DNA of 42,049 nt from Candidatus Dormiibacterota bacterium (GTDB taxonomy: Bacteria > Chloroflexota > Dormibacteria > Dormibacterales > Dormibacteraceae), in assembly GCA_955652835.1 (NCBI GenBank), contig CATPBO010000208.1:1-42049 (forward strand), in the 5' to 3' direction. Of the stretch, positions 739 through 37,315 are shown one piece after another. The stretch's first letter is position 1. Each line of letters opens with the position of its first letter. The position numbers and the translations under genes were made by a program. The notes beneath the pieces were generated by a model. The model did not search any database. It saw only the letters and a program-made list of their open reading frames with translations, and was not told where the DNA came from.

Positions 739-2325
739 ATGGAAGAGGGAGCCCGCACCGACGGCGTCCCGAAACCCGGAGTGCTGGATGCGGAGCTGCT
801 CGGCGACTTCGGGCACCAGGTGCGCAACCAGCTGAACGCAGTGGTGGGGGCGGCCGGCCTGCTCGCCACCAGCGCCTCGTCAAGCGAAGAGCGTGAGCTC
901 GCGTCGATCGTCGAGATCGGGGCAGAACAGATCGCGAGATTGGTTGACGACGTCCTCGACGCGGCGACCATACAGAGCGGCGAGTTCGAGCTTGCCCTAC
1001 ATCCGTTCGATGTGCGCGCCAGCGTCGAGACCTGCATCGGCCTCGTCGCCGACGCCGCGGGCGCCAAGAGCCTCGACCTTTCCTTTAAAGCGGCGCCGGA
1101 CGTGCCGCCCGTCATCGTCGGCGACTCGCGGCGTCTGGAGCAGATCGTGCTCTCCCTTCTGCACGGTGGGATCGAGCGCACATTCCGCGGCGGTGTCGGG
1201 GTCGAACTCGGCGTCGAGGACAAGGGTGGACTCGTCGCGCTCAGCTTCACGATCCGTGACACCGGGCGAGGGATCCCGGCAAGGATCCTCCGTGGTGGGC
1301 TCGATGGCGCGGCGAATCCTCGCGATCGCCTGGAGCCTGGCGACCGGCTCGCGGTGTTAAGCCTCGGGACCACCAGGCGGCTTGTCGAGATGATGGACGG
1401 CGAGCTGCGCGTTGAGCAAGGCGGTGTCGAGGCGGGACCTGACGCGGGCACGTCGTTTGCGTTCACGATCCTGGCTGAGGTGCTGCCGGCTTCCGTCACG
1501 ACCTCACAGCTCACGCTCGAAGCGATGCGCGTCCTGGTGGTGACCGCCGACCCCACCGAGCGGCGAGTGCTCGCGCTCCAGTCGGAGCAGTGGGGAGCCA
1601 CAGCAACGTCCGCGACGCCCGAAGAAGCGCTGGCGGTGGTGACGGCGGGGCACCCGTTTGACATCGCGGTTGTCGAGCACCGGCCCCCTGTTATCGAAGG
1701 CCTCGAGCTGTCAACAGCGCTGCGCGCGTTGAAGCGTGCGGACCAGCTGCCGATCGTCCTCATCGCGGTGGCGATGCCCGGTCCGGAAGTTGCAGAGGCC
1801 GCCGACACCGGCGTCATCCAGGCCACGCTTACCAAGCCGGTGGCGGCTCGCACGCTTCACGACGTCATGGTCCAGGTCGGCGTCCATGCAGTGCCGCCTC
1901 CCAAGCCTGAGGTCGAAGTGGTGCCAGGGGCGCTCCACGTGCTGATCGCGGATGACAATGCCCTGAACCAGAACCTCTTGAAGCGGCTTGTGGCCAAGCT
2001 CGGACACAGCGTCGATGTGGTATCAAACGGCCGCGAGGCGGTCGCGGCGGTGGCGCAGCAGCCATACGACGCGCTGCTCATGGACGTCCTGATGCCGGAG
2101 ATGGACGGCCTTGAGGCGGCTGAGGCGATCTGCCGTCGCTGGCCGCGCGGTAGCCGGCCGCGCCTGATCGCGCTCACTGCGATGGCCGGCCCAGGTGACG
2201 AGGAACGCTGCCTCAAGGCAGGCTTCGATGACTACATGAGCAAGCCGGTGCACCTGGAGGACCTGGTCGAGGCTTTCAAGGCGGCGGCCGGGTACAGGAC
2301 GACGAGAGAAAAAGCCGACCTCTAG
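739..2325 (+). CDS. Hybrid histidine kinase with two receiver domains (degenerate kinase core)
   Basis: A soluble 528-residue signalling protein without membrane segments. I chose ATG 739 because AGGAGG ends 8 nt upstream; an in-frame ATG at 697 has no such site. Order: HisKA-like helix with His26 (FGHQVRNQLN), HATPase domain about 90-245 with a G1 box DTGRGIP at 174-180, receiver 1 at about 263-381, receiver 2 at about 399-517. Receiver 2 is complete, with acidic residues ADD, Asp449 in LLMDVLMPEMDG, and SKP. Receiver 1 carries Glu313 where the phospho-acceptor Asp belongs. In the N box the Mg-binding Asn is replaced (LLHGGIERT), and His26 is followed by Gln rather than the usual Glu. It lies directly after the secretion ATPase and its stop overlaps the stop of the convergent gene. 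It may control or respond to the pilus system, which is inference. Confidence 0.85.
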   Translation: MEEGARTDGVPKPGVLDAELLGDFGHQVRNQLNAVVGAAGLLATSASSSEERELASIVEIGAEQIARLVDDVLDAATIQSGEFELALHPFDVRASVETCIGLVADAAGAKSLDLSFKAAPDVPPVIVGDSRRLEQIVLSLLHGGIERTFRGGVGVELGVEDKGGLVALSFTIRDTGRGIPARILRGGLDGAANPRDRLEPGDRLAVLSLGTTRRLVEMMDGELRVEQGGVEAGPDAGTSFAFTILAEVLPASVTTSQLTLEAMRVLVVTADPTERRVLALQSEQWGATATSATPEEALAVVTAGHPFDIAVVEHRPPVIEGLELSTALRALKRADQLPIVLIAVAMPGPEVAEAADTGVIQATLTKPVAARTLHDVMVQVGVHAVPPPKPEVEVVPGALHVLIADDNALNQNLLKRLVAKLGHSVDVVSNGREAVAAVAQQPYDALLMDVLMPEMDGLEAAEAICRRWPRGSRPRLIALTAMAGPGDEERCLKAGFDDYMSKPVHLEDLVEAFKAAAGYRTTREKADL

Positions 2326-17392: not shown

Positions 17393-17926
17393 ATGGGCAA
17401 CCTGCTCCCCGGCGAAAACCTTGTCCTCAAGGACCACCCTCACTGGGTCGTCCTCATCAAGTCGATCTGGATCCCGATCGTCCTGGTGATCATCGTGATC
17501 ATTGCCGACTTCACTTTCCTGCTGGACAACTACAGCGCTCTACCCCTTCACTTTCGGACCTATCTCACCCTTGGCGTGGTCGCGCTCGCAGGCCTCTGGC
17601 TCATCGTGGTGTGGATCCGCTGGCAGTCGACCACCTACACGCTGACCGACCAGCGAATCAAGATCGAAACCGGAGTCTTCGGCCGCCAGGAGAAGGTCAT
17701 CCCGATCGACCGAGTCCAGGACGCCACGACGAGGATGTCGCTCTTCGGGCGCATGCTCGGCTACGGACGGGTCGAGATCGACGCGGCCGGCGCGCAAGGC
17801 GCCGAGGTTCTCGACCACCTGCCTAATCCCGGCACGTTCCGCGACCAGGTCTTCATGCAGACGGAGAAGCGTCGAGGAGCGCCGGCGGCAGCTCCGGCGG
17901 TTCCGACCAATCCCAGCGGCATCTAA
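17393..17926 (+). CDS. PH domain-containing membrane protein (bPH2, YdbS-like)
   Basis: A 177-residue protein. LLPGENLVLKDHPHWVVLIKSIW leads into two membrane helices (about 26-43 and 56-76). A bacterial PH-like domain follows (TTYTLTDQRIKIETGVFGRQEKVIPIDRVQDATTRMS, then LFGRMLGYGRVEIDAAG), and a Pro/Ala-rich tail ends the protein. This is the standard build of the bPH2/YdbS family, whose exact role is unknown. ATG 17393 lies 6 bases after the peptidase stop. Its stop overlaps the apparent ATT start of aroK. Its presence in the aro run looks like operon hitch-hiking rather than a pathway link. Confidence 0.85.
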   Translation: MGNLLPGENLVLKDHPHWVVLIKSIWIPIVLVIIVIIADFTFLLDNYSALPLHFRTYLTLGVVALAGLWLIVVWIRWQSTTYTLTDQRIKIETGVFGRQEKVIPIDRVQDATTRMSLFGRMLGYGRVEIDAAGAQGAEVLDHLPNPGTFRDQVFMQTEKRRGAPAAAPAVPTNPSGI

Positions 17927-18423
17927 TTCGCCGTCCTTTAGCCCTCATCGGCTTTATGGGTTCGGGGAAGAGCGTCGTCGGCGCGCTGGTCGCGCAGCGC
18001 ACACAGGCGCCGTTTCACGACCTGGATCGGATGATCGAGCTCGAGGCCGGCATACCCATCCCGGAGATTTTCGCGAACGGAGGCGAGGCTGCTTTTCGTG
18101 CCCTCGAGAGCGAAGTGCTCCCCAATGCTCTGGAACCGGGGTCGGTGGTGGCGCTCGGAGGCGGTAGCCTGATGAATGACACGAACTGGCACCTCGTTGC
18201 CGCCACATCCTCCACGGTGTATCTCGAGGTTCCCTTCGACACGATGTGGGAAAGGATCCGAAAGCTCAGTGGAAGGCCGCTCGCCTCAGGGCGTTCCCGG
18301 GATGAGGTTCGGGCACTATTCGAGCTCCGCCTGCCCCGCTATGAACAGGCGCAGCACCGCGTGGATGGCGATCGCCCGCCAGGAGCCGTCGCTGATGAGG
18401 TCATCAAACTTTGGTCCGCCTGA
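17926..18423 (+). CDS. aroK: Shikimate kinase, apparent ATT start
   Basis: A 165-residue P-loop kinase that makes shikimate 3-phosphate from ATP. The Walker A loop GFMGSGKS is preceded by the first strand LALI. FHDLDRMIE carries the shikimate-binding Asp, EAAFRALESEVL the conserved Arg, ALGGGSL the Walker B-like loop, and GRPLASG plus RLPRYEQ the lid and last Arg. The first ATG (17956) codes for the Met within the P-loop and cannot be the start. No ATG, GTG or TTG exists upstream in frame before the conserved strand. ATT 17926 overlaps the last base of the previous stop and gives MRRPLALIGFMGSGKS, as in other shikimate kinases. The rare start is inference. Confidence 0.92.
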   Translation: MRRPLALIGFMGSGKSVVGALVAQRTQAPFHDLDRMIELEAGIPIPEIFANGGEAAFRALESEVLPNALEPGSVVALGGGSLMNDTNWHLVAATSSTVYLEVPFDTMWERIRKLSGRPLASGRSRDEVRALFELRLPRYEQAQHRVDGDRPPGAVADEVIKLWSA

Positions 18424-26507: not shown

Positions 26508-27042
26508 CGTCTCGGCCGCGCTGGAGGCGATTCTCTTCAGCTCCAACCGCCCCCTCAAGCTGCGCGAGCTGCAGCAGGCGACCGACGCGGATCGCACCGC
26601 GGTTGAGCGCGCGCTCGAAGAGCTGCGTCAGCAGCTGGAGGGACGCGGGGTGATGCTGATGAGACACCACGACGAGATTCACCTCGCGACGCGGCCGGAG
26701 TTCGCGGCTGCGGTTCGCCGCGCACTCCGCCCCGAGGTTTCTGGCAAGCTGTCTCCGGCCGCCTACGAGACGCTCGCCATCGTCGCCTACCAGCAGCCGG
26801 TCGCTCGCGCGCGGATCGAAGATGTCCGAGGGGTGAACTGCGAGAGCGTGCTGACCAACCTCGAATTGCGCGACCTGATCACCGAAGTCGGCCGCGGCTC
26901 CGGCCCAGGCCAGCCGAAGCTCTACGGCACGACGATGAGGTTTCTCCAGGTGTTGGGTCTCGAGTCGCTGGACCACCTGCCCACGCCGCGCCTCGAGGGT
27001 TCTGAAGCGAGCACAGCATCGAGCGAACGAGCTCCAACCTAG
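26500..27042 (+). CDS. scpB: Segregation and condensation protein B
   Basis: A 180-residue protein with two winged-helix domains. From GTG 26500: VSAALEAILFSSNRPLKLRELQQATD, then LSPAAYETLAIVAYQQPVARARIEDVRGVNCESVLTNLELRDLI, then RGSGPGQPKLYGTTMRFLQVLGL. It dimerises and binds the ScpA linker. An upstream in-frame TTG (26479) would extend it by 7 residues. Its stop lies inside the start region of rluB, whose reading frame extends upstream of it. Confidence 0.95.
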   Translation: MSDVSAALEAILFSSNRPLKLRELQQATDADRTAVERALEELRQQLEGRGVMLMRHHDEIHLATRPEFAAAVRRALRPEVSGKLSPAAYETLAIVAYQQPVARARIEDVRGVNCESVLTNLELRDLITEVGRGSGPGQPKLYGTTMRFLQVLGLESLDHLPTPRLEGSEASTASSERAPT

Positions 27043-27821
27043 AACGCCTGAATCGCTTCCTGGCACGATCCGGCGTGGCCAGCCGCCGTGCCGCCGACGA
27101 GCTGATCGCGTCAGGTGCGGTCCGCGTCAACGGCCAGGTTCCGCCGGCCTCAGGCCTGCTGGTCGACCCCGAAAAGGACCGGGTCACTGTGAACGGCCAA
27201 GCCGTCAAGCCGGTCACGCGCCACCGCTACATCGTGTTGAACAAGCCCCTGGGTGTGATCACGACGGCGAAGGACGAGTCATCGAGAACCACTGTGCTCG
27301 ATGTGGTCGGGGACGAAGGCAAAGGGGGCCATCGGTTGTTCCCGGTCGGGCGCCTGGACGCCGACACGTCAGGCCTGCTTCTGCTCACAGACGATGGCGA
27401 TCTCGCCTATCGCCTTACGCATCCCGCCTACAAGGTGGCGAAGGAGTACATCGCGTTTGTCACCGGCAATCCGAACACCGCTGACGTCGAGACCTTGCGC
27501 AAAGGCGTCAAGCTCGATGACGGCATCACCGCTCCCGCCGAGGTCGAGGTACTCCGAATTACGCCCGGGAGCCGCGAATCTGGGATTGCCGAGGTCCGGG
27601 TCGTGATCCGCGAAGGGCGTCACCGGCAGGTCCGCCGCATGCTGCATGCCGTTGGGCACAAGGTTCAATCACTGCAGCGGGTAGGCTTCGGCCCGTTGAA
27701 GCTGGGACGCTTGAAAGCGGGCGGCTGGCGGGTGCTGGGCGAGGCGGAGATCGCGGCCCTTCGCCGGGCGGTGGATCAAATGGGCAGCCCTAAGGCCGCC
27801 CCGCGCGCGCCGCGCAAATGA
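27018..27821 (+). CDS. rluB: Pseudouridine synthase RluB-like, start codon unclear (ATC or CTG)
   Basis: An rRNA pseudouridine synthase with an N-terminal S4 domain (ERLNRFLARSGVASRRAADELIASGAVRVNG) and the RsuA/RluB catalytic domain. GRLDADTSGLLLLTDDGDLAYRLTHP holds the catalytic Asp; YIVLNKPLGVITTAKDE and REGRHRQVRRMLHAVGHKVQSLQRVGFGPLKL are also diagnostic. The first conventional start, GTG 27075, would cut off the first S4 helix (ERLNRFLARSG). In that frame there is no ATG, GTG or TTG back to the stop at 27003-27005. Candidates are ATC 27018, used here, and CTG 27048. Neither has a good ribosome binding site. The assignment as RluB rather than RluE or RsuA follows from the scpB-rluB-cmk order. 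Confidence 0.9.
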   Translation: MERTSSNLERLNRFLARSGVASRRAADELIASGAVRVNGQVPPASGLLVDPEKDRVTVNGQAVKPVTRHRYIVLNKPLGVITTAKDESSRTTVLDVVGDEGKGGHRLFPVGRLDADTSGLLLLTDDGDLAYRLTHPAYKVAKEYIAFVTGNPNTADVETLRKGVKLDDGITAPAEVEVLRITPGSRESGIAEVRVVIREGRHRQVRRMLHAVGHKVQSLQRVGFGPLKLGRLKAGGWRVLGEAEIAALRRAVDQMGSPKAAPRAPRK

Positions 27822-33321: not shown

Positions 33322-33992
33322 GCCGGCTGTTTGTCGTGGCAACCCCCATTGGGAACCTGGATGACGTCACCGCCCGCGCCCTGCGGGTGCTCGGCGAGGT
33401 CGGAGCCATCGCCGCGGAGGACACGCGAATCACCGCGAGGCTTCTCGCCCGGCACAGCATCCGCAAGCCGTTGATCAGCTACCGCGCACCGGTGGAGCGC
33501 CGCGGCCTGCCCCGCGTCATGGCTGAGCTCGACCAGCACGACGTCGCGCTGGTGAGCGATGCGGGGACACCCACCCTTTCGGATCCCGGTCAGGCGCTGG
33601 TCACCGCCGCCTGGGCGGCGGGACATTCTGTGGTGGCGATTCCGGGACCCAGCTCCGTCACCGCGGCCCTGTCGGTCGCGGGTTATGGCGGCCCCGGCTT
33701 CGCATTCATCGGCTACCTGCCCCGCAAGCCTGGCGATATGCGGCGGCTGCTCGCGACGCTGGCTGACGATCCACGGCCCACCGTCGCCTTCGACTCGCCG
33801 TATCGCATCAGGAAATCGCTGGCGATCATCGCTGAGGTCATGCCCGAGCGTCACGTCACCTTGACCCGCGAGCTGACCAAGCTTCACGAGGAGATCTTGC
33901 GTGGCAGCTCGGCGGAGGTCCTGGACGCCCTCGGCGACCCGCCTCGCGGCGAGTTTACCCTTGTGATCTCCGGTGGCCGAAGCAAAGACTGA
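33318..33992 (+). CDS. rsmI: 16S rRNA 2'-O-ribose C1402 methyltransferase
   Basis: A 224-residue SAM-dependent tetrapyrrole-methylase-fold enzyme. The N-terminal [65 protein letters not shown] and the FIGYLPRK stretch are hallmark RsmI motifs. The C-terminal [13 protein letters not shown] is also typical. TTG 33318 overlaps the dinG stop. The order rsmI-metG-tatD-ksgA is a well-known conserved run. Confidence 0.96.
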
Positions 33993-35736
33993 ACGAAGAA
34001 CTGTCCTGGTGGCGCCGGCATGGCCTTACGCCAACGGCCCTCGCCACATCGGCCATGTGGCCGGCTTCGCCGTGCCTGCCGACGTTCTCGCGCGCTTTGA
34101 ACGGCTTCGCGGATCGCGGGTGCTCATGGCGAGCGGGACCGACGAGCACGGCACGCCCATCACCTATGAGGCCGACAAGCAGGGCGTGCCGCCACGCGAG
34201 TTCGCCGACCGCAACAACGCGCTGATCGTCGAAGACCTCCGCCGGCTCGGAATGACTTACGACGTCTTCACACGCACCACGACCGCCAATCACCACCGCG
34301 TCACGCAGAGGTTGTTTCTCACCCTTTACGAGAAGGGCTACCTGGTCAAAGAGAAGCAGATGGGAGCTTTCGATCCGGCTTCAGGCCGGACTTTGCCCGA
34401 CCGCTACATCGAGGGCACCTGCCCGATTTGCGGTTTCCCCGAGGCCCGCGGTGACCAGTGCGATAACTGCGGCAACCAGCTAGATCCTGTCGACCTGATC
34501 AATCCGCATCAGCGCGGAAGCGATGCACCGGTGGAGTTTCGCGAGACCGAGCATTTCTTCTTTGACCTTCCCGCTTTCGGAGAGCAGCTCAAAGACTGGA
34601 TCGAGCAGCACGACAACTGGCGCCCCAACGTGCGCAAGTACTCGCTCGAGTACGTTCGCAACCTCAAACGACGCGCCATCACGCGTGACCTGGACTGGGG
34701 CGTCCCTGTTCCCCTGCCCGGTTGGGAGGACAACCCGCACAAGAAGATCTACGTCTGGTTTGACGCGGTGATCGGCTACCTGTCGGCGTCGATCGAATGG
34801 GCGGCGCAGCGCGGTGAGCCTGAGGCGTGGAAGGACTGGTGGCAAAACACCGACTCCTGGCATTACTACGTCATGGGCAAGGACAACATCACGTTTCACA
34901 CCGTGATGTGGCCCGCGATTCTCATGGGCGTGAGCGACGAGAAGCAGACGTATGAGCTGCCGGATGACATCGTGGCCAGCGAGCACCTGCACATGGAGGG
35001 CAAGAGGCTCTCCACCAGTCGAGGCCACGTCATTTACGTGCGCGATGTCCTGGACAAATACGACGCCGACGCCTTGCGGTACTACCTGATCATCGCCGGC
35101 CCGGAGAACCAGGACACCGACTTCACCTGGTCAGAGTTCGTACGGCGCAACAACGACGAGCTCGTAGCCACGTGGGGCAACCTGGTGCATCGCACGCTGG
35201 TCAACGCACACCGCAACTTCGGCGGTGTGCCCAAACCGGAGACTCTCACCCCGGCGGACGAGACTCTCATCAAGGACGTCGAGAGTGCGTTGGACCAGGT
35301 TGCCTTGCAGCTCGGTCAGTCCCACTTTCAGCTGGCTTTGAAATACGCAATGTCGACGGCGGCCAAGGTCAACGTTTATCTGGGTACCGAGCAGCCGTGG
35401 CACACGATCAAGACCGACCGCGAGAGGGCCGGCACCGTGCTGTATGTCGCACTGCGCTGCGTCGACAACCTTAAGACGATGCTGACGCCGTTTCTTCCGT
35501 TCTCCTCGCAGAAGCTGCACCGGATGCTCGGCTACGACGACGTGATAGCTGAGCAGCCTGAAGTGCGTGAGGTCGTTGAGGACGGGGCCTCGCACTCGGT
35601 CCTCACCGGTGACTACGCAAGCGAAGACCGCTGGCGACCCTCCCAACTTCCACCCGGCCGCACGCTGCCGCCTCCCGAGGCGCTGTTCAAGCGGCTGGAT
35701 GAAGTGGTCGAAGAGGAGCAGCCCGCATCTACGTAG
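33973..35736 (+). CDS. metG: Methionyl-tRNA synthetase
   Basis: A 587-residue class I synthetase. HIGH motif at residues 25-28 (GPRHIGHV). A CXXC pair of zinc sites lies around residue 150-170 ([20 protein letters not shown]). The KMSKS-type loop reads [10 protein letters not shown], a variant like the KxSTS form of actinobacterial and some archaeal MetRS. The helical anticodon domain follows; no C-terminal EMAP/tRNA-binding domain is present. GTG 33973 overlaps rsmI by 20 bases. The last codons contain the ribosome binding site and apparent ATC start of tatD. Confidence 0.96.
35713..35718 (+). promoter_or_regulatory. Ribosome binding site of tatD supporting an ATC start
   Basis: GAGGAG lies 8 nt before ATC 35727, ideal spacing. 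It sits within the metG coding end. No other start candidate in the tatD frame (ATG, GTG, TTG or CTG) exists before the conserved THLHL motif. Confidence 0.6.
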
Positions 35737-36476
35737 ACACGCACCTCCACCTCGAAGAGCTGGGTGATCCCGGCCAGGTGGTGGAGACGGCGGTCAGGGC
35801 GGGCGTCACGCGGATGATCACCATGGGAGTCGATCTGGAGCGCAGCCGCACGGCTGTCTTGCTGGCCCACCGTCTGGATGCGGTGTGGGCGGCGGTCGGG
35901 CACTACCCCGGCGAGCACGCACCTCCTGACATGAAAGCGCTGGGAGAGCTGGCGAGGGACACGCGCGTCGTCGCCATCGGTGAGGTAGGCCTTGACTTCG
36001 AAGAACATGGCACCCCACCCCGCGACGTGCAGGGAGAGCGGCTGCACCAGATGTTCGAGCTTGCGGTGGAGCTCGACCTTCCGGTATCCGTTCACAATCG
36101 CGGCGCCGCTGCCGAAATCGCCAGCGCCATCGCTGCGCATCGGGGCCTGCGCGGTGTGATGCATTACTTCGCCCTCGAGTGGGATTGGGCCGAGCGCTTT
36201 CTCGAGCTGGGCTTCTACCTTTCGTTCGCCGGACTGGTCACGCGACCGAGTCGCCACGCCCTGCGAGGGGTCGTCAAGCAATGCCCCGCTGATCGGTTGC
36301 TCCTCGAAACCGATTCTCCTTATGGCAACGCGCACAAGCGCATGGGCGTGCCCAACCAACCCGCCTACCTGCTTGACACCGCAGAGCTTGTCTCGGAGCT
36401 GCGCGGGATGAGTCTCGAAGAGCTGGCCGCGCAGGAAAGCGCCAACGCGCTGGCTCTCTTCCGAAATATGAAGTGA
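35727..36476 (+). CDS. tatD: TatD family metal-dependent hydrolase, apparent ATC start
   Basis: A 249-residue TIM-barrel hydrolase/DNase. Metal ligands are DTHLHLEE (HxH, residues about 4-11), the Glu in [15 protein letters not shown] (normally VH.R), MHYFA and ETDSPYGNA. The first conventional start, GTG 35778, would delete the HxH metal site, so it cannot be right for an active enzyme. The frame is open only from 35703, and the sole reasonable start is ATC 35727, preceded by GAGGAG. It yields [13 protein letters not shown], matching the normal TatD N-terminus. metG-tatD-ksgA order supports the call. Confidence 0.92.
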
Positions 36477-37315
36477 TCGATCCCGCCGACATCCGGCAGC
36501 TCGAGAGCCTGCTGCGCCGGCACCGCATCGACCTCAGGCATTCGCTCGGCCAGAACTTCCTGACCGACCCGGGGTTGCGCGACGCCATCGCCGAATCCGC
36601 GCGCATCACGCCCGAAGACGAGGTGCTCGAGGTTGGCGCCGGCGTCGGGACTCTGACCGTGGCGCTGGCTCCGCGATGCCGCCGGTTGGTCGCGGTTGAG
36701 CTGGACGGCCGGCTCCTACCCGCGCTGCGCGATGTCCTCGCGGGGCATCAGAACGTCGAGGTTGTGCGCTCGGACATCCTGCGCTTCAACACCCGCTCCG
36801 CCTTCCCCGACGGCAAAGAGATCGTCGCGGGCAACATCCCCTACAACCTGACCGGCGCCTTGATTCGCAAGTTCCTCGACGAACCGCCGCGACCCCGCCG
36901 GCTCTCACTGGTGGTGCAGAAGGAAGTCGCAGAGCGGTGGACGGCTTCCAGCGGCGCGAGCCTGGCTACCGTCGCTGTGCAGGTATTCGCCCAGGCCCAG
37001 GTCATCCTCACCATCCCGGCCGCCGCCTTCACACCGCTGCCCCGCGTGGATTCGGCGCTCGTGCAGCTTGATGTACGCGAGAAGCCCGCGGTCGATGTCG
37101 ATGACTTCGGCGCCTTCTTCCGCTTTGTCGAGGCAGTGTTTCAGGGCCGCCGGAAGCAGCTCGGCGGAACGTTGGGCCGGATCAGTGGCACCGGAAGCAC
37201 AGAGGCCGGGGCACGCGTGCGCAAGCTGGGTATCGACCCAGAGCGACGCCCGCAGACGCTCACACTCCCCGAGTGGCAGGCGATTTATGCGGAGTTTCGA
37301 AGTCCCGGCGGCTAA
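36473..37315 (+). CDS. rsmA: 16S rRNA dimethyladenosine transferase KsgA/RsmA
   Basis: A 280-residue SAM-dependent enzyme that dimethylates the two adenines of helix 45. LRHSLGQNFLTDPGLRDAI, EVGAGVGTLTVALAPRC (SAM loop), NIPYNLTGALIRKFL (catalytic NIPY), VVQKEVAERWTASSG, and FTPLPRVDSALVQL are all present, with the C-terminal helical domain ending in LTLPEWQAIYAEF. GTG 36473 overlaps tatD by four bases. It closes the rsmI-metG-tatD-ksgA operon; an MFS gene follows 15 bases later. Confidence 0.96.
   Translation: MIDPADIRQLESLLRRHRIDLRHSLGQNFLTDPGLRDAIAESARITPEDEVLEVGAGVGTLTVALAPRCRRLVAVELDGRLLPALRDVLAGHQNVEVVRSDILRFNTRSAFPDGKEIVAGNIPYNLTGALIRKFLDEPPRPRRLSLVVQKEVAERWTASSGASLATVAVQVFAQAQVILTIPAAAFTPLPRVDSALVQLDVREKPAVDVDDFGAFFRFVEAVFQGRRKQLGGTLGRISGTGSTEAGARVRKLGIDPERRPQTLTLPEWQAIYAEFRSPGG

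Follow-up and report, generated by a model that had tools for sequence, protein, structure and literature searches.

Where does translation of a gene begin when its frame offers no canonical start codon ahead of the sequence encoding its catalytic residues? The question is raised by tatD in a contig of 42,049 nucleotides (hereafter the window, i.e., the whole stretch of DNA analysed), which belongs to a draft genome (G000) of 2.63 Mb in 263 contigs (completeness: 85%), related most closely, among named genomes, to Candidatus Dormibacterota MAGs. On the forward strand, the metal-binding HxH site of TatD (the T-H-L-H of DTHLHL) is encoded at 35739..35750, with its His codons at 35742 and 35748, while the first in-frame canonical start is a GTG at 35778..35780, an unlikely start whose position varies in relatives. 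The tatD frame is closed by a TGA at 35700-35702 and open from 35703; eight codons (AGT GGT CGA AGA GGA GCA GCC CGC), none of which is ATG, GTG, TTG, AUN or CUG, then lead to an ATC at 35727..35729, the sole near-cognate start between the opening of the frame and DTHLHL. A Shine-Dalgarno (SD) sequence, GAGGAG (35713..35718, + strand), precedes this ATC with an 8-nt spacer and doubles as the Glu-Glu codons of the C-terminus of MetG. Indeed, metG (methionine--tRNA ligase; 33973..35736, + strand, TAG at 35734-35736) extends 10 nt into the beginning of tatD, in a different frame. Read from the ATC, the tatD coding sequence spans 35727..36476 (+ strand), i.e., 249 codons before a TGA stop (36474-36476) that is itself overlapped by the GTG start of the next operon gene, rsmA/ksgA (36473..37315, + strand). 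A sequence-only reading of the same DNA had already described the frame as open only from 35703, ATC 35727 as its single usable codon, GAGGAG as lying 8 nt upstream and the HxH site as encoded ahead of the first ATG/GTG/TTG; this description proved correct in all details.

Translated from the ATC, the protein matches the Pfam profile TatD_DNase (PF01026) with 210.6 bits (gathering threshold: 27; E-value: 3e-62) over profile positions 1-253 of 253, position 1 of the profile aligning with the Val codon at 35733. It carries the motifs DTHLH, GEVGLDF, VHNR, MHYF and ETDSP, aligned with 1j6o/2gzx, the residues of which we take to be metal ligands from what is known of the TatD family. Hence, the N-terminal HxH and the E, H, H and D residues of TatD-type metal-dependent DNases are all present, and the full-length PF01026 match likewise places the protein alongside TatD/YcfH DNases, even though it stays below the curated cut-off of the NCBIfam model TIGR00010 (174.6 bits vs. 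206); only its start codon is unusual. The GTG at 35778, the first canonical start in the frame, is what standard gene finders would predict; the conservation upstream would then be incidental, and a GTG is frequent in relatives at codon 15 or 16 after V, owing to two Val codons there. However, since the PF01026 match begins at Val 35733, such a start would cost the protein its HxH ligands, along with the first strand matched by the profile. Moreover, the first GTG, TTG or ATG downstream is found at variable places in relatives, between codons 4 and 27 after V, whereas variation across tatD codons 1-16 amounts to 0.107, 0.042 and 0.375 at the first, second and third codon positions, respectively, a third-position bias that shows these codons, upstream of the GTG, to be translated in this very frame. 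We thus regard a start at 35778 as very improbable.

The tatD gene was located in 40 of the 42 genomes of the family of the window (f1), and the DNA around the DTHLH motif was read in each of them. An ATC occupies the same codon in 22 loci and lies one codon upstream in 3 more (25/40), one locus has a CTG, two others have an ATG (L017) or a GTG (L021) at the same codon, and most of the remaining loci have an ATG, GTG or TTG nearby. Judging from these aligned 5' ends, tatD begins with AUC in at least 25 species of Dormibacterota, a group of uncultured soil bacteria. In a maximum-likelihood tree of the 40 sequences, the clade including the window comprises 30 rows, 25 of which have an ATC start. 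None of the 10 rows of its sister clade has one, and several tatD genes of that clade sit behind an apparent rsmI end instead of metG, according to their sequence context. The proposal of the sequence-only reading, that tatD starts at ATC with a strong ribosome binding site, is therefore supported by the relatives. That reading had also named what would undo it, namely relatives with ATG at this codon combined with a base-calling error. An error concealing a true ATG might be suspected in a MAG that is a fragmented draft, but the same ATC recurs in about 25 genomes obtained independently, some of L031-L038 coming from assemblies that were deposited separately, against a single ATG and a single GTG; with more than 20 independent assemblies in agreement, a sequencing or assembly error is refuted, its probability being practically nil.

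Some relatives have the tatD frame open further upstream, which would allow for a start inside metG at an unrecognised codon, the Ile then being internal. Yet, in two loci, an in-frame stop directly adjoins the ATC (TAA in L016, TAG in L059), so that the start cannot be upstream there, and in the window only the eight non-near-cognate codons precede the ATC; we consider such a start exceedingly doubtful. As ATC is the commonest Ile codon here (85.5%), the invariance of the triplet is weak evidence by itself, and, in overlapping loci, the conservation of ATCTTCGTAG is partly forced by the last codons and the stop of metG. Due to this codon bias and this overlap, the case rests on the non-overlapping loci, the adjoining stops and the SD. 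Regarding the first of these, the metG stop lies 4-5 nt upstream of the tatD ATC in L018-L020 and L061, which means that the ATC is kept where metG imposes no constraint. Regarding the SD, a match of at least 5 nt precedes 18 of the 22 ATC codons, and one of at least 4 nt all 22, compared to 30 out of 280 (at least 5 nt) for the ATC triplets found inside the upstream metG (Fisher p = 9e-13). Together with the conservation of the ATC across species, this enrichment indicates that the codon is not there by chance. Unlike the ATC loci, the ATG locus (L017) and the GTG locus (L021) have no SD, and the tatD orthologues display the compensation between start codon and SD that would be expected of an initiator codon.

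The overlap of metG and tatD in different frames in the window could also be taken as the mark of a MetG-TatD fusion produced by -1 frameshifting or stop readthrough, without any independent tatD start. However, the metG stop is found at +7, -3, -6, -7 or -8 relative to the tatD start depending on the species, which covers every relation possible between the two frames, so that no single recoding event could serve them all. Furthermore, no slippery heptamer was seen at the metG end in the window sequence, and an SD at start-codon spacing before the ATC argues against a fusion as well. Accordingly, this explanation was rejected, and we grant it hardly any credence. Two tatD variants may be mentioned separately. 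In L007 (G005, about 1480-1510, reverse strand), the gene has no ATC, and a GTA overlapping the metG TAG (AAGGAG-N7-GTAG) is a possible start. In another family, f3 (L071-L075), tatD has no ATG, GTG or TTG, and its likely start is a CTG overlapping the metG TGA (CCTGATCGAT), with GGAG 8 nt upstream.

Our preferred reading, to which we assign a probability of roughly nine in ten, is that tatD is translated from the AUC at 35727 by fMet-tRNA, in an SD-driven and probably metG-coupled manner, with a low output sensitive to IF3. Briefly, the initiator fMet-tRNA would read the AUC, yielding a TatD protein with the N-terminus (fMet)-Tyr-Val-Asp-Thr-His-Leu-His; the strong GAGGAG within the metG end would make this weak codon usable; and ribosomes that finish metG at its overlapping stop would probably assist by local re-initiation on tatD. 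As a result, TatD would be produced at a low level, coupled to MetG and sensitive to IF3. The open frame, the ATC and its conservation, the SD, the metG overlap and a codon-level constraint reaching down to the first codon are features of the DNA itself, from which we infer initiation at AUC, the use of fMet, coupling to metG and sensitivity to IF3. Other explanations were sought in the mRNA and in the initiation machinery. Folding around the tatD start showed nothing notable (z = +1.36), and mRNA structure was rejected because the start region is not unusually folded. Nearly all genomes searched have the anticodon stem-loop GGGCTCATAACCC in their initiator tRNA (13-nt stretch compared), in f1 and in the three other families of the class (f2-f4) alike, and an altered initiator tRNA was rejected because this canonical stretch is found in both. 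A visibly aberrant IF3 was rejected too, as the protein, compared by overall alignment, matches solved IF3s normally.

Non-AUG starts of this kind have been described in other bacteria, even though prokaryotic start codons very seldom change from AUG to CUG or AUU (PMC5622118). In Listeria, the ATC start of rnhC (L. monocytogenes) and the ATT start of infC are fixed and experimentally confirmed, and fixed non-canonical starts are counted in 6 of 2265 Listeria core genes (PMC13068326). In Staphylococcus aureus, infC starts with AUA, while the Staphylococcus genes ccpN (AUA) and cvfC1 (AUU) have conserved starts with strong extended SDs, documented by ribosome profiling; AUA/AUU starts yield about 10% of the output of AUG with a reporter in poor medium, and their control is attributed to IF3 (PMC13009471). 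The start-codon and SD parts of our model are supported by this literature from other bacteria. In a literature search of partial coverage, no paper on start codons in Dormibacterota was found.

A close parallel is infC, the autoregulated gene of IF3 (AUU/AUC/AUA), with which tatD shares a conserved AUN start other than AUG and an SD; as in infC, there is no ATG, GTG or TTG from the upstream stop to the conserved N-terminus, the non-canonical codon is shared across species, and the SD is strong and properly spaced. In contrast to infC, tatD does not encode an initiation factor, which implies no direct feedback loop, and it overlaps an upstream gene, metG. Like tatD, Listeria rnhC is a gene for a nucleic-acid nuclease with an ATC start, but it belongs to a different gene family and phylum, and a conserved overlap with metG is not known to us in that case. 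As for ccpN and cvfC1, the likeness lies in conserved non-canonical starts with a strong SD, whereas the genes, codons and lineage differ, and ribosome profiling stands there against comparative sequence for tatD. In terms of kind, tatD is thus, from its comparative record, a further conserved infC-type non-AUG start, of a sort already known, and a strong case for AUC as a stable and long-lived start outside infC.

The sequence-only reading had added that such starts are very rare outside genes such as infC, a statement that fails for this lineage, in which nrnA, a DGK-like gene, hflX and ribF also start with ATA or CTG. To look at other genes, we used a homology-based scan of N-termini over about 1.2 Mb of sequence drawn from seven f1 genomes, extended to the three other families. 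As shadow ORFs made the first automatic scans noisy, a GC3 filter was introduced and matches were checked by eye. Raw flags after the scan amounted to 64/659 genes in f1, 17/253 in f3, 3/238 in f2 (all infC) and 4/137 in f4 (which look like shadow ORFs). After curation by hand, non-canonical starts other than infC numbered about 24/655 in f1 vs. 0/372 in f2 and f4 together, with a p-value (3e-5) that is only indicative, since curation was non-blind and retained the less certain UDG and rluB, while the counts pool non-independent orthologues and the number of relatives per call differs among families.

The infC gene served as a positive control. In the genome of the window, it starts with ATC (TAG CGT CTC ATC TCG TTT), an in-frame stop lying three codons upstream, and in each of the 27 family loci read the start is ATC or ATA, at a position that does not vary (L151/L085, G000:C97:385-885; L146-L175); the C-terminal part of the query was a generic IF3-like approximation, used only to find loci, of which the own DNA was then read. 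In f4, infC has an ATA by eye, missed by the scan, and in f3 it appears to start with ACG (TGA TCC ACG GCA TTT AGG). Beyond infC, nrnA (a nanoRNase-like DHH phosphoesterase) starts with ATA behind GGAGGA-like SDs in 24 of 25 loci, including that of G000 (L280, G000:C219; L255-L279), the last one having GTA (G001), and yet ATA represents only about 5% of Ile codons. In all six loci read of a YegS/diacylglycerol-kinase (DGK)-like gene, the start is an ATA preceded by GGGAGG-like sequences, while CTG starts are found for hflX (3/4) and ribF (5/6), the remaining locus having in each case an ATG at the same codon (stretches from G001/G002/G008/G029/G030/G031, L086-L145). In f3, both tatD and rpsO read CTG. 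AUC, AUA and CUG starts in several other genes of the lineage make tatD one case of a broader habit.

The scan suggests an enrichment of non-canonical starts in this lineage, unreported and only partly quantified; under the same sampling, the two sister families f2 and f4 have such starts in infC alone. It is an evenly poised question whether, among f1 and the three other families sampled, the related families f1 and f3 would have expanded their stable starts to AUC, AUA and CUG, occasionally ACG/GUA, in several percent of genes, and whether infC, tatD, nrnA, the DGK-like gene, hflX, ribF and f3 rpsO would form a conserved network of genes with weak initiation, which would respond to IF3 or to the global fidelity of initiation. 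The AUA starts of nrnA and of the DGK-like gene and the CUG starts of hflX and ribF make start-codon stringency a testable trait that differs between sister families, with an IF3 and an anticodon stem of the initiator tRNA that both look ordinary. In practice, gene callers that accept only ATG, GTG and TTG will shorten or overlook genes of this phylum, TatD losing its catalytic histidines.

Finally, a few more genes without an obvious canonical start were noticed. The rpsO gene (ribosomal protein S15) has an apparent CTG start behind GGAGGT/GAGGTA in L235-L248 (G038, G046), where f1 has TTG at the same codon. In the window, an aroK-like gene (17826-18420, + strand) and a rluB-like gene (27005-27820, + strand) have no ATG, GTG or TTG upstream of their conserved N-termini, their candidate starts being an ATT and an ATC. 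Likewise, G002, G008, G030 and G031 have a uracil-DNA-glycosylase-like gene (KSLS...CTKCGLHATRTQ) that lacks a canonical start; in G002 and G030, a TGA lies directly before AAG TCG CTT, with AAG or CTT as candidate start.
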